Part shown: in pieces, positions 616-28,259 of the stretch | Position numbering within the stretch: position 1 is the stretch's first letter | Layout: every line of letters starts with the position of its first letter | Assembly: GCA_009377575.1 (NCBI GenBank) | Contig: WHTU01000014.1 | Coordinates: 1-64,000 of the forward strand | Length of the DNA: 64,000 bases | Reading direction: 5' to 3' | Source: Nitrososphaeraceae archaeon | Lineage (GTDB): Archaea > Thermoproteota > Nitrososphaeria > Nitrososphaerales > Nitrososphaeraceae | Position numbers and translations under genes: made by a program | The notes under the pieces: generated by a model | Database searches by the model: none | What the model saw: only the letters and a program-made list of their open reading frames with translations | What the model was told of the DNA's origin: nothing

Positions 616-661
616 TTTTAAGATTTCTGGAACGGACGATTTTATGTATTTTACCGATCTG

Positions 662-697
662 TTTGATAGTTTAGAGTTGTCTTTACTATTCTGGCAG
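662..697 (+). repeat. LQFWH-type C-terminal fragment, copy 1
   Basis: Reads F-D-S-L-E-L-S-L-L-F-W-Q on the plus strand, matching the family consensus F-D-A-F-R-M-S-L-Q-F-W-H at F, D, S, L, F and W. It lies just behind the NHL gene inside a 62-codon open frame with a hydrophobic tail. This is the most divergent copy and has lost the terminal stop. Confidence 0.35.
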
Positions 698-837
698 ATG
701 AACCGCGCTCACGCTCCTATTGCATTAACTATACTTTTGATCCCTTGCATACTTATAACGTATATTTTGGGTACTGCCATTTATGAGTAAATCACTTATG
801 ACCATAATGGAGCATCTTTTATCCATTTACTTGCAAC

Positions 838-845
838 GGAGGTGA
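838..845 (+). promoter_or_regulatory. Strong Shine-Dalgarno site
   Basis: GGAGGTGA sits eight bases before the ATG at 854 and fixes that start. Such a clear ribosome site is uncommon in this window, where most genes show TATA boxes close to the start codon instead. Confidence 0.7.
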
Positions 846-853
846 AAAAGTAA

Positions 854-1399
854 ATGAGAAAAGTAATTGTTAGCATTATGTTGTCCGTAGATGGCTCCTT
901 TGAAGGACCAAATAAAGAGTTGGACTGGCATGTATGGGATGACGAAATGGAAAAGTATATGGACAATTTTCTGAATACTGTGGACGCAATTTTATTGGGA
1001 CGTGTTGCCTATCAACTTTTGGCAGCTTACTGGCCATCCTCAACTGAGAACCTAGCTCCCAAGTTGAATAACTTACCCAAAATAGTTTTTTCAAAGACTT
1101 TGGAAAAGGTTGAATGGAAAAACTCAAGACTGATTAAAGAAAATATCGAGGAAGAAATGTTGAGACTTAAACAGGAGCCTGGCAAAGATCTGGTACTATT
1201 TGCTGGTGCCGACATTGCATCTACACTCCTGCAACTCGGTTTAATTGATGAATATAGAATCATAATCAATCCTGTTGTCTTAAGTAATGGCAAACCATTT
1301 TTCAAAGACGTAAAAGATAGACTTAGCCTGAAACTTCTGAATACAAAGACGTTTAATTGCGGCAATGTTATCCTTTACTACCAAACAGTAAAGAAATAA
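854..1399 (+). CDS. Dihydrofolate reductase-like (RibD C-terminal) protein
   Basis: A 181-residue single-domain protein of the RibD C-terminal/DHFR-like superfamily, whose members are NAD(P)H-dependent reductases. The N-terminus (M-R-K-V-I-V-S-I-M-L-S-V-D-G) is the family's first strand, followed by L-L-G-R-V-A-Y around residue 48, V-F-S-K-T-L around 77, L-V-L-F-A-G-A around 112, and a terminal L-I-D-E-Y-R-I-I-I-N-P-V-V-L-G-like segment (here V-V-L-S-N-G-K-P-F-F). Length is normal for the stand-alone family often annotated as YwjB/YyaP-like. A strong Shine-Dalgarno site supports the start. The substrate is unknown; these proteins are usually not true folate or riboflavin enzymes. The gene stands alone among accessory genes. 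Confidence 0.85.
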   Translation: MRKVIVSIMLSVDGSFEGPNKELDWHVWDDEMEKYMDNFLNTVDAILLGRVAYQLLAAYWPSSTENLAPKLNNLPKIVFSKTLEKVEWKNSRLIKENIEEEMLRLKQEPGKDLVLFAGADIASTLLQLGLIDEYRIIINPVVLSNGKPFFKDVKDRLSLKLLNTKTFNCGNVILYYQTVKK

Positions 1400-1410
1400 C
1401 AAAATAAAGT

Positions 1411-1433
1411 TCTCTGTAGTTCTGGCGTTAATG
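1411..1433 (+). repeat. LQFWH-type fragment, copy 2 (highly decayed)
   Basis: The bases TCTCTGTAGTTCTGGCGTTA match the better copies (TCTTTGCAGTTCTGGCATTA) at most positions. In the family frame the CAG codon has become TAG and CAT has become CGT, so only the DNA similarity remains. Confidence 0.35.
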
Positions 1434-1473
1434 AACCCGAAAGCTTGAAATATTTTGCAAGTCGTAGTTTGAC

Positions 1474-1845
1474 ATGGCAAAGCTAGTTGAGATGGATGAA
1501 CGAGTTGGAATCTTCGCGCAAATGGCTGAAAATGTCGGTCCAATTATATTGATAAATAAGTTCAGCGTAGGCCCAGAAGACTTCGATGAGTTTCTGAAAG
1601 CATGGGCCACCGAAGCCGAGAAATTTAAACAGCAGCCAGGGTTTATCTCGACACAACTACACAGGGGTATTGGTGGGAGCGGCACCTTCGTCAACTACGC
1701 AGTTTGGGAATCTGCCGCACTCTTCAAGAGGGCAGTTAATACCGTTATGAACCCACAGGACAGGATGTCTGCTTATCCTGCCAGCACGGTGGCATCCCCT
1801 CACCTATTCAAGAAGGTTGCAGTACCTGGAATCTGTGTAGAATGA
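1474..1845 (+). CDS. Antibiotic biosynthesis monooxygenase (ABM) family protein
   Basis: A 123-residue protein with one ABM fold (dimeric alpha-beta barrel). Family hallmarks are I-L-I-N-K-F-S-V-G-P-E-D near residue 25, Q-Q-P-G-F-I-S-T-Q-L-H-R-G at about 50-62, F-V-N-Y-A-V-W-E-S at about 70-78, and the closing S-P-H-L-F-K-K-V-A-V-P-G-I-C-V. Relatives oxidise small quinols or degrade haem, but many have no known substrate. The first 18 residues are not part of the domain, so a start at the ATG at 1522 is also possible. A decayed paralogue of its C-terminus lies at 4327-4464; both copies are followed by an LQFWH-type fragment, which suggests that the pair was duplicated together. Confidence 0.85.
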   Translation: MAKLVEMDERVGIFAQMAENVGPIILINKFSVGPEDFDEFLKAWATEAEKFKQQPGFISTQLHRGIGGSGTFVNYAVWESAALFKRAVNTVMNPQDRMSAYPASTVASPHLFKKVAVPGICVE

Positions 1846-1857
1846 ATCCTTATAATT

Positions 1858-1905
1858 GAAGCATTACGTATGTTTCTGCAGTTCTGGCACTCACCACCAA
1901 AATGA
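1858..1905 (+). repeat. LQFWH-type C-terminal fragment, copy 3
   Basis: Reads E-A-L-R-M-F-L-Q-F-W-H and then S-P-P-K before a stop. It starts 13 bases after the ABM gene. The CAT-stop of other copies is CAC-TCA here, so the frame runs four codons further. Confidence 0.5.
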
Positions 1906-1911
1906 ATTGGA

Positions 1912-2532
1912 CTAATCCAATTCGCCACCCCCATCATCACCTTCATCATCACCAGAGTTGTTACTTTCATCTTCATTGCTCCCCCCATCATCGCTATCAC
2001 TATCATCATCATCATCAGACGAGTCTTCCGACTGGGTATCACTGTCGTCATCATCCTGCCCTCCTCCTACTTGATCTGGCTGTTGTGCTCCTTCGTTTTC
2101 AAATGGTGTAGGAACTTGAGGTAGATTTGCTGACTGGGGGCCTGAGACTGGCGGCACCAGGGTTAGAGATGTAGGAGGGGAAGGAGAAGCAGGAGCAGAA
2201 GTAAGAGAGATATTGCACTGCTCTTCTGTCGGTGCTAAAACTCCATTAGGGCATTCAAAAGGCGTAGGTACGGCAATACAATCCCCTGTCTGGGGGGAGA
2301 TGATTACAAATTGATTTGGGGGACAATCCGCCTCTGTTGTCGGGTTAGGACATTTCATAACTGCTAGTATTACACTTCCATCTGGGCATATTGTAGTGCC
2401 TTGATCGGGTTGATTTGCATCTGAGATCGGGGTCGCATAGACAAAAGTTGGAATCATGAACAAAAATGTAAATACTACTACTACTACTACTGCTATCACG
2501 CCTAAACCAGCAAACGGTTTTGCAATCTTCAT
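1912..2532 (-). CDS. Secreted or anchored protein with acidic Asp/Ser tail
   Basis: About 206 residues from the ATG at 2532; a GGAGG about 13 bases upstream supports this over a TTG at 2553. Residues 1-35 form one hydrophobic segment ending near F-V-Y-A-T, a signal peptide or membrane anchor. The middle has a short Cys-rich part with two related units (C-P-D-G-S, C-P-N-P, C-P-P-N-Q and F-E-C-P-N-G, E-E-Q-C), then a Pro/Ser/Thr-rich linker. The last about 55 residues are almost only Asp, Ser, Glu, Gly and Asn. Such tails bind cations or keep surface proteins soluble, but that role is inferred. The opposite strand of the tail reads as a His-rich frame, which is only a shadow. No known family was recognised. 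Confidence 0.6.
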   Translation of the reverse strand: MKIAKPFAGLGVIAVVVVVVFTFLFMIPTFVYATPISDANQPDQGTTICPDGSVILAVMKCPNPTTEADCPPNQFVIISPQTGDCIAVPTPFECPNGVLAPTEEQCNISLTSAPASPSPPTSLTLVPPVSGPQSANLPQVPTPFENEGAQQPDQVGGGQDDDDSDTQSEDSSDDDDDSDSDDGGSNEDESNNSGDDEGDDGGGELD

Positions 2533-2721
2533 TTTCTCTTCTTGTCCTCCCAAGAATCTAAAAACCTACCTATAACATCATTCATCGTCCCATGCATCTG
2601 TCCTACCTTCTTGAGCCGCTTATGATTTTCACCAGTGACCTTAATCGTATTCGCCTTTGCAAGGTTCATAGCCTATCTGAAAGAGTAAACGGTATAAAGG
2701 TTACACACGCATAATTATAAA

Positions 2722-2928
2722 GTGAAAGTGTTTTGTCCGAGGTGTCAGACCGACGGAAAGAGAAGTAAGGTCATCACATATCTAGGCCAAACTATACCCA
2801 AGATGAAGTTCACTGATGGATATTGGAATGAGGAGGGGGATTTCGTTGAATTTAATGCGGAGATTAAACTGCCATAGTATATTTGTAGTAATGGACACGT
2901 AACGCCACGCAGTAAGATAGATAAATAG
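2722..2928 (+). pseudogene. Small zinc-ribbon-like gene with in-frame stop
   Basis: From GTG at 2722 the frame reads V-K-V-F-C-P-R-C-Q-T-D-G and runs 51 codons to a TAG at 2875. The same frame then continues for 16 codons, including C-S-N-G-H, to TAG at 2926. A C-x-x-C knuckle at the start and a C-x-x-x-H at the end are what a small zinc-binding protein of about 67 residues would need, so the first TAG probably breaks it. A 51-residue product without the second ligand pair is the alternative. No RNA-level recoding signal is visible. An LQFWH-type fragment follows seven bases later. Confidence 0.45.
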
Positions 2929-2934
2929 ACCAGG

Positions 2935-2958
2935 ATGAATCTGCAGTTTTGGTACTAA
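2935..2958 (+). repeat. LQFWH-type C-terminal fragment, copy 4
   Basis: Reads M-N-L-Q-F-W-Y-stop. Only the last part of the family is kept. A 14-base palindrome (GAAGCTATAGCTTC) lies 15 bases further on at 2973-2986. Confidence 0.4.
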
Positions 2959-3162
2959 CCGGTTAAGCAGTGGAAGCTATAGCTTCTTAACTCTCAGTGA
3001 CGTATTATCAGAAGCCCAGAAAATATAAGGGACATTCTAGACCTCAACTACTGCTGCTAGTGGTTTCCCACTATCACATTTAACTTCCATTCCTCAGTTC
3101 TTTGCAATCTGTTAAGTAAAGATCACTCCCATAAAATTATCGTATATTTATGCTAAGTATAC

Positions 3163-3173
3163 AATATATTTAT
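3163..3173 (+). promoter_or_regulatory. TATA box of the DoxX gene
   Basis: AATATATTTAT is centred about 32 bases before the ATG at 3200, in a very AT-rich stretch. This places the predicted transcript start within a few bases of the start codon, as expected for archaeal short-leader messages. Confidence 0.5.
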
Positions 3174-3199
3174 CCAATGATTAGTACAGTTATTATTAT

Positions 3200-3646
3200 A
3201 TGAATACTCAAAAACTCTCTTTGTATGGTCCGTTACCTATAAGGATACTTGCAGGAATAGCATTCATAGCACATGGTCTCCCGAAACTTGTTGATCCAGC
3301 AATGACCCAAGGCTTTTTTGGAAACATAGGTTTACCCCCTGAGATGGCGGTTCCTATTGGTGTCCTCAAAGTCGTAGGAGGCTTTGCCATACTACTTGGA
3401 ATATTAACAAGAATAGCATCAATTCTGTTTATAATAGAAATGATAGGGGCTCCCCTTCTGACTAAGATCTCTGAAGGGTTCGTAGGTGGTTATGAGCTGG
3501 ATTTACTTCTAATGGCCATATCAATAAGTCTCTTGCTTACTGGTCCAGGAAAAATTTCTATAGAGTACGATATTTTAAGACGAGAACTATTTCCTAAAGG
3601 GGAAGATCTTGTACGGCAGGTCAAATATCATGAAACTAATAGATGA
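3200..3646 (+). CDS. DoxX family membrane protein
   Basis: A 148-residue integral membrane protein of the DoxX/DUF417-like group with four hydrophobic helices. The first has the typical R-I-L-A-G-I-A-F-I-A-H-G-L-P-K-L followed by a loop with G-F-F-G-N-I-G-L-P, and the second has G-V-L-K-V-V-G-G-F-A-I-L-L-G-I-L-T-R. These proteins sit in the cytoplasmic membrane; roles suggested in bacteria include thiol stress and quinone-linked redox, but none can be assigned here. Length is normal. The downstream gene overlaps its last 17 bases, so the two are probably co-transcribed. Confidence 0.85.
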   Translation: MNTQKLSLYGPLPIRILAGIAFIAHGLPKLVDPAMTQGFFGNIGLPPEMAVPIGVLKVVGGFAILLGILTRIASILFIIEMIGAPLLTKISEGFVGGYELDLLLMAISISLLLTGPGKISIEYDILRRELFPKGEDLVRQVKYHETNR

Positions 3647-3908
3647 TCCTGACATAACTATTTTTCATTCGATGGAGTTCAGAAATGAGAACTGTAATTT
3701 ATCCATGCAGAGGGACAGTATTGCAACATCCTTCAGAGAAGATAATGATGGTAGGGTATTTCAGATAGAGCTCGATGCGTTAAATGCACTTATGTCAGAC
3801 GATTTCATAACCTTGCTTGAGGATAGTGTCGACCGTCATTTCGACGAATCGATTTATGAGGAAGTCATGGAAGATCCTAAACATTCGACTGAGACGATAT
3901 GGAGATAA
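3630..3908 (+). CDS. Small acidic protein, unknown
   Basis: A 92-residue protein from the ATG at 3630; an in-frame TTG at 3609 would add seven residues. It is rich in Asp and Glu, has no membrane segment, and matches no family I recognise. It overlaps the end of the DoxX gene, which implies translational coupling. After its TAA at 3906 the same frame stays open for another 32 codons (3909-4004), basic and Lys/Val-rich, before TGA at 4005. Either the stop is a recent nonsense change or the open tail is chance. Confidence 0.5.
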   Translation: MKLIDDPDITIFHSMEFRNENCNLSMQRDSIATSFREDNDGRVFQIELDALNALMSDDFITLLEDSVDRHFDESIYEEVMEDPKHSTETIWR

Positions 3909-4092
3909 GTCCCCAACGCTGTCAAGAAGTTTGACAAACTAGTAGAGATTAATAGGGCAAAAAAAAGAGTAGTAGAACTTAAACCATGGAAAGTGGTTAA
4001 CTTATGAATAGCTGAATCTCGAACGGTAAAAGAAGGTTTTGTGAGAAATATCTGTTAAATAATTTATTGGACAATAAATTCAGATTTAGGAC

Positions 4093-4299
4093 GTGACTGA
4101 GAAATCTTCAGTCAAAGAAGCAGCGGCATCTAAATCAGAGCGCTTGTCAAAAGACGATCTTCAATATCTCATGGGTTTGCTAGACAAAGCAGAAGAAGAG
4201 ATTGAAGCAGAAGGCGATGGAGAAAACCAAATAGCAGCGTCTTTGACTAGAAAAAGGATTACTCGTATAAAGTTAGCGTTGGTTGATCTCTATAAATGA
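4093..4299 (+). CDS. Small charged helical protein, unknown
   Basis: 68 residues from a GTG start. A TATA-like AATTTATT at 4061-4068 is 28 bases before the GTG, which fits a leaderless message and supports this start. The product is dominated by Glu, Lys, Ala and Leu, and reads as one or two amphipathic helices (L-L-D-K-A-E-E-E-I-E-A-E and R-K-R-I-T-R-I-K-L-A-L). No signal, cysteine pair or known domain is seen. Confidence 0.5.
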   Translation: MTEKSSVKEAAASKSERLSKDDLQYLMGLLDKAEEEIEAEGDGENQIAASLTRKRITRIKLALVDLYK

Positions 4300-4326
4300 G
4301 AGTGTCTATAGGATGACTATGTATAG

Positions 4327-4464
4327 ATTATTTCTTGTCGGATCTTTAATAATCCCGAGTTCCATCCAAACATGGCCAAGATACTTCCTAACACTGTGAT
4401 GTCTCGTCGCCTATTCAAAAAAGTTGCAATCCATGAGGTTTGTGTGAACCGAATCCCTGACTGA
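4327..4464 (+). pseudogene. Remnant of an ABM-family monooxygenase gene
   Basis: The frame closes with F-N-N-P-E-F-H-P-N-M-A-K-I-L-P and then R-R-L-F-K-K-V-A-I-H-E-V-C-V-N before a stop. It aligns with the last third of the intact ABM protein at 1474-1845 (S-P-H-L-F-K-K-V-A-V-P-G-I-C-V). A TAG at 4324 closes the frame upstream, and nothing of the first two thirds of the domain is present. An ATG at 4372 could give a 30-residue peptide, but that would be only a C-terminal strand. It is probably a decayed duplicate. Confidence 0.6.
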
Positions 4465-4471
4465 TCCTGTC

Positions 4472-4510
4472 TTCAATGGCTTCAGACTTTCATTGCAGTT
4501 CTGGTATTAG
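4472..4510 (+). repeat. LQFWH-type C-terminal fragment, copy 5
   Basis: Reads F-N-G-F-R-L-S-L-Q-F-W-Y-stop, a close match to the consensus. It lies eight bases behind the ABM remnant in a different frame, the same order as copy 3 behind the intact ABM gene. Confidence 0.55.
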
Positions 4511-4677
4511 AAGACTTATCCAAATCTTTGGATATGTTAGATTAGCAAGAAAACCTGCTAACCTAGTGTTACTAGTTAGGACAGGATTCATAATGTTTTC
4601 TTTGACAACTAAATTAGGTCTCTGAACTAGTAACCCTAAGTTTACAAAGTTAATAACTGCAGTTAGTGACTGCAGTT

Positions 4678-4767
4678 GAGAAAAGTGATGGTACATTGGA
4701 TAAAGAAATGTCTAGTCATGATAACATGTTTGATGCATTTCATATGTCTTTGCAGTTCTGGCATTAA
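4678..4767 (+). repeat. LQFWH-type C-terminal fragment, copy 6 (long)
   Basis: One of three long copies. In frame it reads E-K-S-D-G-T-L-D-K-E, then M-S-S-H-D-N-M-F-D-A-F, then H-M-S-L-Q-F-W-H-stop. Against the copies at 7369 and 7944 many base differences are in third positions, so the sequence once evolved as protein. An in-frame ATG at 4708 would give only 19 residues. Upstream, the sequence ACTGCAGTT occurs twice within 4657-4677. Confidence 0.6.
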
Positions 4768-4875
4768 TCAATAGTAAATCAGTCCGCTTTCGGTCTAGGA
4801 CGTCACTATAGTTTTATCAACGATCTATACTACGTTGTAATGACTCTGACTCAACGCTCTATGCTGTTTGCACAT

Positions 4876-5253
4876 CTAGCAGTGAGTAGGATCACCCGGA
4901 TTGCAGATTAATGCTTTCTTGGCTGAGTCCATATGTATTTGTGCCCCTTCTGTATCGCCATTCTGCAGCGCGGATTGTGCTTGGTTGATATGATATATTG
5001 CTTGTTGATTGGAGTTGGAAGAAGCACCGCTACTACTGCTGGAGTCAGGATTTTCTGTATTGCATCTAGGATCAATTGGAGAGCAGCCTTCGGCAGCTTC
5101 TTGATTGGAGTTAGAAGAACTGGGTCCGGGAGAGCCTCCATCAACAGAAGCCGAAACCATCTGAGAAGACGTCGAAACAAGTAATGCAACAATGGTTCCA
5201 AAAATCAACAGTATATACACTAACCGTAGACAGATCATGCTTTCCTTTTTCAT
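4876..5253 (-). CDS. Small secreted Ser/Asn-rich protein
   Basis: 125 residues beginning M-K-K-E-S-M-I-C-L-R-L, with a hydrophobic segment at about 9-28 and a likely signal-peptidase site near V-S-A-S around residue 36. The mature part has Ser/Asn-rich linkers, two cysteines in C-S-P-I-D-P-R-C, a helix (H-I-N-Q-A-Q-S-A-L-Q-N-G-D) resembling many thaumarchaeal exported proteins, and a closing C-N-P-G-D-P-T-H-C. Four cysteines could form two disulphides outside the cell. Function is unknown. Its base composition matches its neighbours. Confidence 0.65.
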   Translation of the reverse strand: MKKESMICLRLVYILLIFGTIVALLVSTSSQMVSASVDGGSPGPSSSNSNQEAAEGCSPIDPRCNTENPDSSSSSGASSNSNQQAIYHINQAQSALQNGDTEGAQIHMDSAKKALICNPGDPTHC

Positions 5254-5377
5254 ATTGGAACAGAAGCTGCTAATGTGCTATATATGCAGAGCTATCTGTG
5301 CCCTTGAAGAAGAGGCGGAGGTATCGTTTACTGCCCATTAATGACCCCCACCGAGATGTCCGTCACACCACAAGTTC

Positions 5378-5545
5378 AGACTATTTCTACAGTTCTGGGA
5401 CGAGCAAATATCATTTAAGAATAGGGTCCCACTATATCTAACTCGTGTGGAAATAAGATGCATTGACTGCGGCTGCAGTCCTCAAGAATGTATTCAGAGC
5501 AAATCATCGAAAGAGCGTCCACATTGTCTCCTAGACGTATGCTGA
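5378..5545 (+). repeat. LQFWH-type fragment, copy 7, with Cys-rich open frame
   Basis: R-L-F-L-Q-F-W is followed not by a stop but by a further open frame of about 48 codons with six cysteines (C-I-D-C-G-C, then Q-E-C, then H-C and C before the stop at 5543). The frame is open from 5345 but has no ATG; a GTG at 5447 would give 32 residues. Whether the Cys-rich part is a decayed zinc protein or chance is not clear. Confidence 0.35.
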
Positions 5546-5661
5546 TGCTGGTCGATTGTTCATGCATCTACGTAACAAACACCGGCCAGAAGTTAAACGG
5601 CAGGGCCTCAATAGTAGTTAACAAACCTATATAATATTTGGTCTACTGATGAATACATAGG

Positions 5662-6504
5662 ATGGAAGAGAGTTATCAAACAGCAAGAGTTTTACTTTTG
5701 ATGTCTCTAGGCATTGCAATCATCGCCGCGGGTATTATATTGATCCCAAACTCAGTTTTCGCCAGCACAGAAAACAGAACATTATTGAAACCTGCAGAAA
5801 TGAATCGCGAGACTACAGCAACGAGTACAAATGCCACGAATATCGTTCTAGTCCACGGTTCATTTGGTGATGGGTCTGTATGGAGCAAAGAAATTCCCAT
5901 TCTACAGAATGCAGGACATAATGTAACCGCAGTTCAACTTCCTCTTCAATCTCTGACAGATGACGTCGCTACTGTGACGCGCGCGATTGAACGCATAGGA
6001 GGACCCACGATTCTTGTAGGACATTCATACGGTGGAGTTGTAATCACCAACGCTGGTTATAATAACTCAAATGTCACCGGGCTTGTTTATCTGGCTGCTT
6101 ATGCTCCTGACCAAGGCGAATCTCTCCTCGATCTCGGTAACAACACTGCTGACCTTCCGGCAAACCTCTTTACAATCGATAACGAAGGATTTATGTTAAT
6201 GAATCCAGATTTGATCCGCGAATGGTTCGCTCAAGATGTTAACCCAACTGAAATAGATATAATGGAAGCTGTTCAGAAACCTGTAAATCTATCCACTGCT
6301 GAAGAAAAATCTGGTCCTCCTGCGTGGAAGCAGCTTCCGACATGGTATCAGGTCTCTGAGAACGATCGTGTTGTCCCTCCTGATCTTCAGCGCTTCTTCG
6401 CAGAAAGGATGAATGCTACTATACTCTCTCTTAATGCAAGTCATTTCTCTCAACTGTCACAACCAGATGAGATAGCCGAATTAATCCTAAATGCAACCAA
6501 ATGA
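5662..6504 (+). CDS. Exported alpha/beta hydrolase
   Basis: 280 residues: an N-terminal hydrophobic segment (about 9-30) with a likely cleavage site after V-F-A-S near 35, then an alpha/beta-hydrolase fold of the salicylate-esterase/EstC-like group. Visible landmarks are V-L-V-H-G-S-F-G-D-G-S-V-W (oxyanion side), the nucleophile elbow G-H-S-Y-G-G with Ser122, a probable acid Asp235 in N-D-R-V-V-P, and His261 in S-H-F-S-Q. It probably hydrolyses a small ester or amide outside the membrane; the substrate is unknown. N-x-S/T sites are common in the chain, fitting an archaeal exported glycoprotein. It is monocistronic. Confidence 0.85.
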   Translation: MEESYQTARVLLLMSLGIAIIAAGIILIPNSVFASTENRTLLKPAEMNRETTATSTNATNIVLVHGSFGDGSVWSKEIPILQNAGHNVTAVQLPLQSLTDDVATVTRAIERIGGPTILVGHSYGGVVITNAGYNNSNVTGLVYLAAYAPDQGESLLDLGNNTADLPANLFTIDNEGFMLMNPDLIREWFAQDVNPTEIDIMEAVQKPVNLSTAEEKSGPPAWKQLPTWYQVSENDRVVPPDLQRFFAERMNATILSLNASHFSQLSQPDEIAELILNATK

Positions 6505-6698
6505 AAACTATTAGGGGTCACTAACTTTATTGCCTTACCCTATGTGGTAAATGGTAGGCATCGTCAGTTCTTTACGCTAATCGATCGAGGATTACTGAGT
6601 ATTCTCATGACAATGGACCATATTGACATTACGAAATCACTGAAAAGATCTTCGTTTCCTGGACTTATTTGCAGAAATAGAAGACTATTTAAGACCTG

Positions 6699-7331
6699 TT
6701 ACGGACCTTTGAAATCTACTACCGCATAAAATGCGTTTTGTCCTGAGTGGTCAAAATTTATGCTTTGAGTTGTGATCCGCATTATCTTTGACTTAGCCGC
6801 CTCTGCAAGTTTCCAAATGAACCCTTTTGGTATTTGTATCTTTGTGTCTTGCTCTTCCCCAGTTACAGGATTTGTGAAACTTTCGGTCTGTACATCCATA
6901 ACACCTGGTACTGAAAAACTACTCTTTTTTCCATTTATATTGACTTTGATATCGACGTATTGTGGTTCAAGGAAGTATTTGAATGTCCCAGCAAATAGTG
7001 CAAAAGGACCATCTCCCTTTGCCTGGCCCGAAACAATATTTATGATCGCCTGTCTCTGCTCTTCATTAGCTTCATTGGTAATGAATAACTGGGCAGTGCC
7101 GTTTCCTTCATGGATCGCCTTTGGCCAATAAACTGCAGTGATAAAATCAAGACCATCAAGCCTAGTATCGCCAAAGCTTCCAGACCTAATATGATATAAT
7201 ATTATAGCTTGGCATGAACCATAAGTGGGAAAGCCATTAAAGTTGCATGGACATCCATAGTCACAGTTACAAGTTTCAACATCATCTGATTTCATATTCC
7301 ACTTGGGAATCTGAGCTGTGGTTGAAGACAT
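6699..7331 (-). CDS. DUF1326 domain protein
   Basis: 210 residues covering a full DUF1326 domain. The signature is C-N-C-D-Y-G-C-P-C-N-F near residue 21, four cysteines likely to bind metal, followed by G-S-C-Q-A. Other family traits are a G-x-F-G-D-T-x-L-D-G-L stretch and a closing S-x-N-F-D-H-S-G-Q-N-A-F-Y-A-V-V-D-F, often seen at the end of these proteins. Function is unknown; no signal peptide, so probably cytoplasmic. It is transcribed toward the alpha/beta hydrolase gene and stands alone. Confidence 0.85.
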   Translation of the reverse strand: MSSTTAQIPKWNMKSDDVETCNCDYGCPCNFNGFPTYGSCQAIILYHIRSGSFGDTRLDGLDFITAVYWPKAIHEGNGTAQLFITNEANEEQRQAIINIVSGQAKGDGPFALFAGTFKYFLEPQYVDIKVNINGKKSSFSVPGVMDVQTESFTNPVTGEEQDTKIQIPKGFIWKLAEAAKSKIMRITTQSINFDHSGQNAFYAVVDFKGP

Positions 7332-7368
7332 TACACTATTTCAGCTAAGTAGAAAAATAGTATATAAG

Positions 7369-7449
7369 CATTTGAAACTGGATAAAGAGGCTACTTCGCA
7401 TGACGACCTGATGGATGCCTTCAGATTAACGCTTCAGTTCTGGCATTAA
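7369..7449 (+). repeat. LQFWH-type C-terminal fragment, copy 8 (long)
   Basis: In frame it reads H-L-K-L-D-K-E-A-T-S-H-D-D, then L-M-D-A-F-R-L-T-L-Q-F-W-H-stop. It begins about 37 bases ahead of the minus-strand DUF1326 start, so it lies between two genes pointing the other way. This is one of the best-kept copies. Confidence 0.65.
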
Positions 7450-7499
7450 TCAGGAAGACTTTAAATCTGTGACTCATGAGTCGAAGGGAAGAAATCTGG

Positions 7500-7880
7500 T
7501 CATTTAATTCTCTCGACCCATTGAGATCGCCACTCAGGGGGTTCGAAAGGATCACCAAAGTAATACGTTTCACGTGCAACCTTACCATCCCTGAACTCCA
7601 TGATTGTTACTGCATTGACTGGACGCCCATCATAGGTAATAACTATTTCAGGTACCCCGAGATTTCCTTCTCCCCGTACCCGCAGAATCTTAAAACTAAG
7701 TTTAGCAGGGTAATGTGCCCTGAGTTCGTATATGTTGTGTTTACCAGAGATTCGTTCACCAGACTGTGGAAATTCAACTATGACGTCGTCATGATAAATG
7801 TCATGTGATCTGTCTATATCACGAGCCACAGCGGCCTCCCAGTAACGATCCAGGGCAGCACGTATTTCTTGATTATCCAT
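7500..7880 (-). CDS. NTF2-like/SnoaL-like protein
   Basis: 126 residues from the ATG at 7880; an ATG at 7895 would add five. A TAATAATC box at 7908-7915, 31 bases ahead, favours 7880. The chain has the NTF2-like order: helix (R-A-A-L-D-R-Y-W-E-A-A-V-A-R-D), Y-H-D-D-V-I-V-E-F-P-Q-S-G-E-R-I-S-G-K near 36, V-T-I-M-E-F-R-D-G-K-V and a final Y-F-G-D-P-F-E-P-P-E-W. This cone fold serves as hydrolase, isomerase or ligand binder; no specific role can be given. Length is typical. Copies 8 and 9 of the LQFWH fragment flank it. Confidence 0.8.
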   Translation of the reverse strand: MDNQEIRAALDRYWEAAVARDIDRSHDIYHDDVIVEFPQSGERISGKHNIYELRAHYPAKLSFKILRVRGEGNLGVPEIVITYDGRPVNAVTIMEFRDGKVARETYYFGDPFEPPEWRSQWVERIK

Positions 7881-7943
7881 TATCTTTCTAATCATCTCAA
7901 AAGCCTAGATTATTAGTCTTCTCTTCGAGTTCAAACTGCGATA

Positions 7944-8039
7944 GAGTATGGGGAAGGAACTCTAGACAAAGAAGCCACGTCACACGATGACGTCTTTGAT
8001 GCTTTCAGAATGTATTTGCAATATTGGCTAAGTAACTGA
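7944..8039 (+). repeat. LQFWH-type C-terminal fragment, copy 9 (long)
   Basis: Reads E-Y-G-E-G-T-L-D-K-E-A-T-S-H-D-D, then V-F-D-A-F-R-M-Y-L-Q-Y-W-L-S-N-stop. The upstream frame is closed by TAG near 7914 and offers no start codon, so this is not a complete gene. Compared with copy 8, GAC/GAT, GAA/GAG, GCC/GCT, TCA/TCG and CAC/CAT changes are silent. Confidence 0.65.
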
Positions 8040-8073
8040 GCTCTTCAGGTTATCGCTGCAGTTCTGGCATTAA
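8038..8073 (+). repeat. LQFWH-type C-terminal fragment, copy 10
   Basis: Reads E-L-F-R-L-S-L-Q-F-W-H-stop and follows copy 9 directly in another frame, so copies 9 and 10 form a tandem pair. Confidence 0.6.
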
Positions 8074-8179
8074 GGAATAATAAATGAAAATCTCACAGAA
8101 AATATCTAAGATTTAATTAGGAGCCAGATTTCGTGCAACCGAAATAAACTGAAATGCCTATCTTTGCGGTAGTCTAGTC

Positions 8180-8734
8180 ATGCATATCAAAGAGACAAGG
8201 AAGAAACACAAGTTTGCAATTCCCGCACTAGCAGTAATAACAGCACTAATGTTGCTTTCAACTACTGCCACAATAATAATGTCAACAACACAAAATGTAT
8301 TCGCAGAGAAATACGGCAAGAATCAAGCAACGTCACAAGCGAATGCTTGTGGAAATGAATTCTTGTCTCTGTATAAAGGCTGTCAGAATATACATTCCCA
8401 AGTCCAAGGAGATAAGAATGCGGTTGCTTTGTCGGCTGAACAAAGATTCCCAAACCCAAGTCCACCAAACCCACCAGACACATGCGAAGAGTGTTTTACT
8501 GCATTCCTTAGTAATACAGAGCTAGATCTTTTCCTGAATGAGCTGTCTGCTAATACATTAGGTCAATTAACCTCGCTCGAACAGTTATGTATGAATGTGA
8601 GTGGAGCCGCAGTAATAGAATTCGCTTTAACTAGCCTAGTAGAAAACAATCTAATAGATTCAGCCGTCGATGAACCCACGATTGACCAAGTAATGGCTTG
8701 TTTGAGAGCCTTCTTTGGCTTGCCACCGATGTAG
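8180..8734 (+). CDS. Secreted protein of thaumarchaeal type, unknown
   Basis: 184 residues. A basic start (K-E-T-R-K-K-H-K) and hydrophobic core to about residue 33 end at N-V-F-A-E, a good signal peptide. The mature part opens with K-Y-G-K-N-Q-A-T-S-Q-A-N-A-C-G-N, a motif shared by many exported proteins of ammonia-oxidising archaea, then a short C-Q-N-I, a Pro/Asn linker, and a helical domain starting at C-E-E-C with three further landmarks (L-C-M-N-V-S-G, C-L-R-A-F-F-G). Six cysteines suggest disulphides. Function is not known. Confidence 0.7.
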   Translation: MHIKETRKKHKFAIPALAVITALMLLSTTATIIMSTTQNVFAEKYGKNQATSQANACGNEFLSLYKGCQNIHSQVQGDKNAVALSAEQRFPNPSPPNPPDTCEECFTAFLSNTELDLFLNELSANTLGQLTSLEQLCMNVSGAAVIEFALTSLVENNLIDSAVDEPTIDQVMACLRAFFGLPPM

Positions 8735-9359
8735 ACAAATAGACTAAAAACATAGTCACCATTGATTTTTCTTTCTTCAGCCTTTCTTGACTCTTGACGA
8801 TGTCCAAATGACGCTATTCGCTAAAGCAAATGACTATAATCCGACGTTTGAATGGACTGAAATCAGTTGCTAACTAAGTTGGTAGATGCAGTTATTCGCT
8901 GAAATAGATGACGATTTAAGGCTTGCTTGAACTTGTCATATCTACAAAGATACTACACTAGTTGCTTCCGTTAATCCTGCTGCATAGGAATTTAAGTATC
9001 TCCCACTAATTTCCGTCCTCGCTTTTAGTATTTCATAGTTAACATCTGAGACAACCATATGTTACGAGGTCTCGATGTTGATATGATGAAGTTTTGGGTA
9101 GAGTGGTGTATACCCAATGACCAATAAAAAAGAAAACTGAATAGTACAATATCTAAATGAAACTTATTTACCAAGTAAACAAGTTTAACGTCTTCAAAGC
9201 CCCCCTGAGCTCAATGCGCTTTCTTCACGCTCTTTAATTTCACGATTTGCCACTGTGTCTTTCTCATTTTTGAGCTAGCCCCAAGTTTCTGGCCCACTCT
9301 TGAGAGGTAACAAATTCCTAACAAAGATAAGGGATAAATGATTCTGCAGCCTTAATACT
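8735..9359 (+). other. Intergenic stretch with a short direct repeat
   Basis: No convincing gene. Two imperfect direct copies built round TATTCGCT and ATGAC lie about 75 bases apart (8811-8837 and 8887-8915). A minus-strand open stretch at about 9200-9310 reads R-V-G-Q-K-L-G-A-S-S-K-M-R-K-T-Q and could be a decayed basic protein, but it has only weak starts. Confidence 0.4.
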
Positions 9360-28153: not shown

Positions 28154-28259
28154 GGAGGGGTAGCGAAGCCTGGTCAACCGCGCAGGACTCAAGATTACAC
28201 GATTTAGATGGGTGATCCCGTCCCTAAGGGGTTCGTGGGTTCGAATCCCACCCCCTCCA
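28154..28259 (+). tRNA. tRNA-Leu(CAA) with a 21-nt intron
   Basis: A class II tRNA. Acceptor GGAGGGG (28154-28160) pairs with CCCCTCC (28252-28258) and discriminator A is 28259, fitting Leu rather than Ser. The D-arm spans GCGAAGCC...GCGC and the T-arm GTGGG-TTCGAAT-CCCAC. The anticodon CAA is 28190-28192 with G37 after it. An insert at 28194-28214 in the canonical 37/38 position is an intron; removing it gives an 85-nt mature form with long variable arm (GTCCCTAAGGGGTTC). ACTC before the anticodon can pair with GGGT in the intron, as in a bulge-helix-bulge. The anticodon stem CAGGA/TCCCG carries one A-C mismatch. CCA is not encoded. Confidence 0.85.

Follow-up and report, generated by a model that had tools for sequence, protein, structure and literature searches.

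Cis-mobilizable elements (CIMEs) and tandem accretions of integrative and conjugative elements (ICEs) or islands consist of elements whose recombination modules are decayed or absent and which lie between direct-repeat attachment (att) sites at a gene's 3' end. NitKor-E1 of Ca. Nitrosopumilus koreensis is an element that encodes the terminase subunits TerS and TerL and a tyrosine integrase without other tailed-virus genes, and the role of its terminase has been called enigmatic (Krupovic et al. 2019, PMC6563490). The same survey reports 14 insertions into protein genes, with terL listed for none, and suggests that counterparts of integrons and of phage-inducible islands might await discovery in these archaea. 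In a further study (PMC7603488), genome growth in this lineage is ascribed largely to gene duplication, and a text search of its contents finds mobile genetic elements, integrases, and transposases unmentioned. Here, we analyze a stretch of 64,000 nucleotides (nt) of contig WHTU01000014.1 from a Nitrososphaeraceae archaeon (the window, to which coordinates refer unless a contig or locus is named; the source genome is termed G000), in which a sequence-only reading had noticed ten dispersed copies of the C-terminus of a supposedly lost protein. The parent of these copies is the terminase large subunit, TerL, and the region from 0.66 to 8.07 kb is probably (we put the full account at about 0.68) an array of mobile cassettes formed by site-specific recombination at the terL 3' end. 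The observations behind this account are the identity of TerL, the polarity and spacing of the arrays, an exchange of units with breaks at the site, a common fusion junction, and the gene order of the elements.

RESULTS

When the longer copies were extended upstream, an intact open reading frame (ORF) of 494 amino acids (aa) was reached on C315, a contig of G000; a second intact terL of 493 aa lies 2.2 kb off, decayed copies occur elsewhere in G000, and relatives carry intact copies too. The parent protein, whose intact gene the sequence-only reading had proposed to seek, is thus not lost, and the statement that no copy has a full frame holds inside the window only. The C315 protein matched the terminase large subunit family phrog_2 of PHROG (E = 3.4e-23), and its Pfam scores, taken alone, were below the cut-off. 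The ATPase and nuclease motifs by which the TerL of a tailed-virus provirus is recognized are conserved in the TerL alignment (A2), and a small helix-turn-helix gene near the C315 terL is in the terS position. Between the two C315 copies, the nonsynonymous divergence (dN) is 0.15 and the synonymous divergence (dS) 2.2; since dS greatly exceeds dN, selection acts or has acted on TerL. On C315 (locus L030), genes for paralogous secreted proteins in which a PLQDGVLEQPP-like motif is repeated (4972-5706 and 7966-8739) lie to either side of terS-terL.

The terL 3' end was modeled from sequence alone over 50 positions (model R1, with several window copies in its training set). R1 recovered nine of the ten copies, two of them marginally and all on the plus strand, as had been described, and found no site in the window from 9 to 64 kb. 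In scoring with a position matrix derived from 18 copies, several of which lie in the window, six window copies reached at least 19 and the 2958 copy 14.9, compared to a top score of 8.4 across the other 55 kb. Independently of R1, tblastn with full-length TerL matched three copies. The copies derive from the C-terminus of a single protein-coding gene, as the sequence-only reading held. The copy at position 1411 had no R1 match at E ≤ 0.5; it was retained because an ABM gene is bracketed by sites in G067:C15 (L115) and G068:C708 (L210), so that its support is indirect. The flank downstream of the first site is common to arrays of G000:C166 and G068. In a set of 55 long copies taken from several genomes, codon positions 1, 2, and 3 differ at 0.36, 0.27, and 0.56, and the third-position bias noticed earlier is real but moderate.

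The sites are characteristic of one genus. At E ≤ 0.01, R1 found 29 (G000), 17, 84, 56, and 8 sites in the five genomes of this Nitrososphaeraceae genus, compared to 0 to 3 in each of 65 other genomes of the family. In G004, G001, and G064, the loci have isolated or decayed terL ends at most and no arrays like those of this genus. Within 783 kb of locus sequence (picked for holding sites, which does not bias strand), 53 adjacent site pairs were on the same strand and 1 was on opposite strands, with a median site-to-site distance of 619 bp and typically one or two genes between neighboring copies. Over 45 bp, identity was 61.2% for copies sharing a contig and 60.5% for copies from separate contigs (permutation P = 0.28). 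Of five window copies tested, a single one had its best partner inside the window, in a tie with copies from two further contigs. Neighboring copies therefore resemble draws from a common pool.

All-against-all comparison revealed that the same units occur on different contigs and in different species, with different neighbors, and with homology setting in no more than a few bases from the terL stop codon. Fifteen pairs, each drawn from two different arrays (14 of them from different contigs), have a cassette start in common and unrelated DNA in front of it: identity was 0.25, the random level, at −150 to −90, positions +2 to +4 agreed at 0.80 to 1.00 (controls, 0.37 to 0.52), and identity rose between positions −3 and +2 relative to the His-stop junction. 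In L116 (G067) and L038 (G000), for example, the upstream DNA is near random and identity is 86 to 90% from the stop codon onward; window 7446 versus G000:C367, L021 990 versus L111 7291, and L102 3186 versus L116 1984 are similar. Exchange with a break at the site is exemplified by G067:C670 versus G000:C6 and by window 7446 versus G000:C367. The sites at which such breaks fell match at only 62 to 72% over their last 50 bp. The SnoaL-terL fusion of the window (7500-8030) can be recognized in eight arrays from four genomes, with different DNA after it; in L021 this cassette is reduced to its tail, and SnoaL cassettes adjoin sites in G069 too. Likewise, a cassette encoding an 82-aa protein is found in G000 and G067 arrays with differing flanks. 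A cassette head of ~120 bp (TAGTCTGCCAGTAGACGCC...) follows the site at L111 7291, L103 1910, L029 11015, L031 11298, L040 2242, L021 990/1501, and L030 4880; in some copies of it, a short inverted repeat, TGGCA-TTAGTC-TGCCA, flanks the crossover.

Full elements have the gene order integrase, replication, terS, terL, site. A tyrosine integrase lies 5' of terS-terL in the same orientation on six contigs (G067:C129, C513, C169, and C167; G066:C236; G000:C315), several of which also carry a replication-type gene (primase-like, PriX domain, or, by inspection, PolB/MCM-like). The proteins tested between integrase and terL had no structural matches, and the HK97-type capsid (PF05065) and portal (PF04860) families had none in the five genus genomes, where very divergent versions could escape; 4 of 14 control genomes matched. 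On the IMG/VR contigs that encode a related TerL, genes matching head, portal, or tail come after terL, and IMG/VR contained no exact match to the strict site pattern, i.e., no free virus carrying the site was found. Tandem terL copies are present on C315 and G067:C169, and tandem terS-terL or terL pairs on the G067 contigs L182, L181, and L183 suggest that elements inserted behind one another. The capsid-less make-up would fit a phage satellite; no helper virus was identified.

In L114 (1824-3546) and L117 (3920-4332), TerL has a swapped nuclease half ending in SLCNYELPKxNP, with a C-terminal remnant of the Phe-Trp-His (FWH) type within ~60 bp after it; the nuclease domain was here replaced as a module. 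That some G067 elements have this other nuclease half and keep a fragment of the FWH-type terL end just downstream is as expected if the DNA end matters in addition to the protein.

Tyrosine recombinase genes are present in the genus genomes. The idea of an integrase beside the site was rejected: loci around integrases were without any site, and the integrase tree singled out no clade of terL elements. Serine recombinases were rejected as well, each genome having one resolvase-family gene with no site in its ~3-kb locus.

The window array can be divided into units that each end in a site (Table 1). Their cargo genes occur in both orientations and are under purifying selection (dN/dS ~0.3 for SnoaL and ~0.1 for RibD), and neither the ORF list nor Pfam revealed an integrase among them. 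The ABM and NTF2-like genes pointed out earlier as possible neighbors are cargo of such units.

TABLE 1 Copies of the terL 3' end and putative cassettes in the window
Feature	Position	Strand	Evidence and content
Site 1	656-697	+	R1 E = 0.11 at 656-696, marginal; start of RibD cassette
Site 2	1411-1430	+	Weak; 14/16 consensus match, no R1 match
Site 3	1853-1891	+	R1 E = 1.9e-4
Site 4	2931-2958	+	R1 E = 0.011
Site 5	4467-4510	+	R1 E = 6e-8
Site 6	4720-4768	+	R1 E = 9e-12; terL codons 460-494 at 4660-4764, tblastn E = 2.5e-9
Site 7	5375-5400	+	R1 E = 0.11, marginal
Site 8	7402-7450	+	R1 E = 7e-12; terL codons 471-494 at 7375-7446, tblastn E = 7e-7
Site 9	7986-8028	+	R1 E = 6e-8; terL codons 460-493 at 7926-8027, tblastn E = 1.2e-10
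Site 10	8043-8073 (part 8031..8073)	+	R1 E = 2.7e-8; 40 bp past site 9; right end of array
RibD cassette	698..1430	+	RibD_C/DHFR-like gene 854-1399(+), Pfam RibD_C E = 6e-26; ends in weak site 2
ABM cassette	1431..1891	+	ABM monooxygenase gene 1474-1845(+), Pfam ABM E = 1.7e-13; ends in site 3
213-aa gene cassette	1892..2958	+	Gene 1912-2553(-), ORF list; ends in site 4
DoxX cassette	2959..4510	+	DoxX 3200-3646(+), Pfam E = 4e-17, plus two small ORFs; ends in site 5
Short unit	4511..4768	+	No clear gene; ends in site 6
125-aa gene cassette	4769..5401	+	Gene 4876-5253(-); ends in site 7
Hydrolase/DUF1326 cassette(s)	5402..7450	+	Alpha/beta hydrolase 5662-6504(+), Pfam E = 3e-24; DUF1326 6699-7331(-), E = 8e-56; site 8
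SnoaL-like cassette	7451..8030	+	Gene 7500-7895(-), Pfam SnoaL_2 E = 1.2e-11; fused to terL codons 460-493; site 9

Scattered transposition, already judged a poor fit by the sequence-only reading, remains one: the five inverted-repeat pairs of the window are weak, and none brackets the copies as a pair, as a transposon or miniature inverted-repeat transposable element (MITE) would show. Rfam found nothing but tRNAs in the window, so a noncoding RNA identity was rejected. A tRNA or transfer-messenger RNA (tmRNA) as insertion target was likewise rejected, with one tRNA-Ile at 46 kb, far from the array. A second tRNA, at 28154-28259 (39.6 bits, 106 bp), was reported by Rfam and not by ARAGORN, and perhaps contains an intron. 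At the start of the contig (1-615) lies a gene with NHL/beta-propeller-type repeats, with a stop at ~199 and a continuation in another frame. A segment of ~115 bp with 70 to 82% identity is found at or near array ends in two genomes (window 8808-8922, L031 11570-11684, and L117 1562-1672) and is possibly a second array-linked element.

DISCUSSION

We propose that a cassette would consist of short cargo, often one gene on either strand, and the last ~30 to 100 bp of terL, whose 3' end would serve as the site of recombination; the crossover would fall no more than ~3 bp from the His-stop junction (between TGGCAT and TA). The sites would originate from integrative elements in which cargo is followed by a tyrosine integrase, replication genes, terS, terL, and the site, with no recognizable capsid genes. 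Insertion at the terL end would keep terL and leave a new site. As each element ends in a site formed by its own last gene, and insertion renews that site, elements and cassettes would accrete in one direction. Internal deletions could then fuse cargo to the terL end, giving minimal cassettes that might later travel as units, presumably via an element-borne tyrosine recombinase in trans. On the simplest account, the recombining enzymes are probably the elements' own tyrosine recombinases, with the terL end as their attachment site, and we infer that they act in trans and are active at present.

Several points weigh against this account. Many sites are degraded, and their conservation is confined to the left side, while most tyrosine recombinases require two arms; coding constraint on terL could yield much of the sharp 3' conservation edge, taken by itself. 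The 15 pairs aligned across the junction were preselected for ungapped identity at +5 to +50, so that their informative parts are the upstream collapse and the edge positions. No integrase lies within 1.5 kb of any strong site, and the integrases of terL elements are scattered over the integrase tree, requiring 10 changes. Every genome is a fragmented metagenome-assembled genome (MAG); owing to this fragmentation, none of the contigs contains a complete element bounded on either side by a site, as attL and attR would be.

The arrays might instead be graveyards that grew by passive accretion, with elements or proviruses inserting at each other's terL ends, losing their middles, and leaving immobile cassettes. 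Numerous decayed terL genes and pieces of integrase genes lie among the sites, terL copies stand in tandem on C315 and G067:C169, and 14 of the 55 long terL fragments have internal stops, all of which speaks for such a history. We nevertheless consider it unlikely, since independent decay would give differing junctions and one SnoaL-terL junction is seen in eight arrays of four genomes with differing DNA downstream. The 82-aa cassette with its different flanks in G000 and G067 and the intact cargo genes under purifying selection argue in the same direction, and decay, one component of the sequence-only reading, does not by itself explain units of gene plus terL end that recur with different neighbors and break at the site. 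With its other component, serial local duplication of one C-terminal fragment, that reading would account for clustered same-strand copies with a coding signature; we give it next to no probability, as neighboring copies are not closer than copies on other contigs (P = 0.28) and as intact parent genes and cross-species cassettes exist. Retrocopies truncated at the 5' end, suggested by the ragged 5' and sharp 3' ends, were rejected because they leave the common cassettes and the polarity unexplained.

Two further explanations start from the DNA of the terL end itself. As direct repeats with a mean identity of ~60%, terL ends are in principle recombinable, and homologous recombination among them could shuffle the intervening DNA without a dedicated recombinase; this we find improbable given that sites match at just 62 to 72% over the last 50 bp, that the DNA upstream matches at the random level, and that some sites retain merely ~25 to 30 bp of terL. 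Alternatively, the terL end could be a packaging (cos-type) cut site at which TerS-TerL cutting and ligation generate mosaic arrays. The conserved DNA does sit inside a terminase gene, and terS and terL are present and constrained, though Pfam shows no capsid or portal gene; a site each ~600 bp would, however, fragment the arrays, and the related IMG/VR TerL genes are followed by portal, head, and tail genes, which makes this explanation very unlikely.

If recombination at the terL end is the correct explanation, Nitrososphaerota gain a route of cassette-based gene acquisition other than the integron, and a possible role is offered for the terminase genes of capsid-less archaeal elements. More tentatively, one might envisage cassette capture independent of integrons, in which the terL end of terminase-carrying, capsid-less integrative elements of soil archaea would serve these elements as an attachment site that renews itself. 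With single-gene cassettes moved in trans by the elements' recombinase, the archaea would gather and exchange metabolic genes in superintegron-like arrays; we regard this as possible but doubtful.

A literature search of incomplete coverage found nothing on integration at a terL end. NitKor-E1 was described as a single element, without use of a terL-end site and without cassette arrays (PMC6563490). Tailed-virus proviruses of Nitrososphaerota such as Nvie-Pro1 share a homologous TerL and an integrase with our elements but carry head and tail genes after terL, whereas here terL comes last and no capsid or portal family was matched. As in CIMEs and accreted islands, the units lie between direct-repeat sites at a gene 3' end, that of terL, and those of the window lack an integrase; here, however, the gene targeted is the one with which the element itself ends, there are up to 84 copies per genome, and a unit comprises about one gene. 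With integrons, including archaeal integrons and clusters of attC sites lacking integron-integrases (CALINs) (PMC9668308), the arrays have in common that short cassettes with enzyme-type cargo run in one direction and end in a site, that the same cassettes occur in arrays with different neighbors, and that units of gene plus site are exchanged at the site. Unlike in integrons, the coding 3' end of terL takes the place of an attC hairpin, cassette genes lie on both strands, and no IntI or attI was identified; none of the tyrosine recombinases of the genomes lies within 1.5 kb of a strong site. Integron attC sites are imperfect inverted repeats that form hairpins as single strands; here, single-strand DNA folds of six sites were no better than those of shuffled sequences (z, −1.00 to +1.24), and since attC-type folding is absent from them, the arrays are not classed as an integron. 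The site consensus is GTTCTGG and not GTTRRRY, the attC motif of integrons. Taken together, this comparison suggests that the arrays represent integron-like gene collecting without integron parts.

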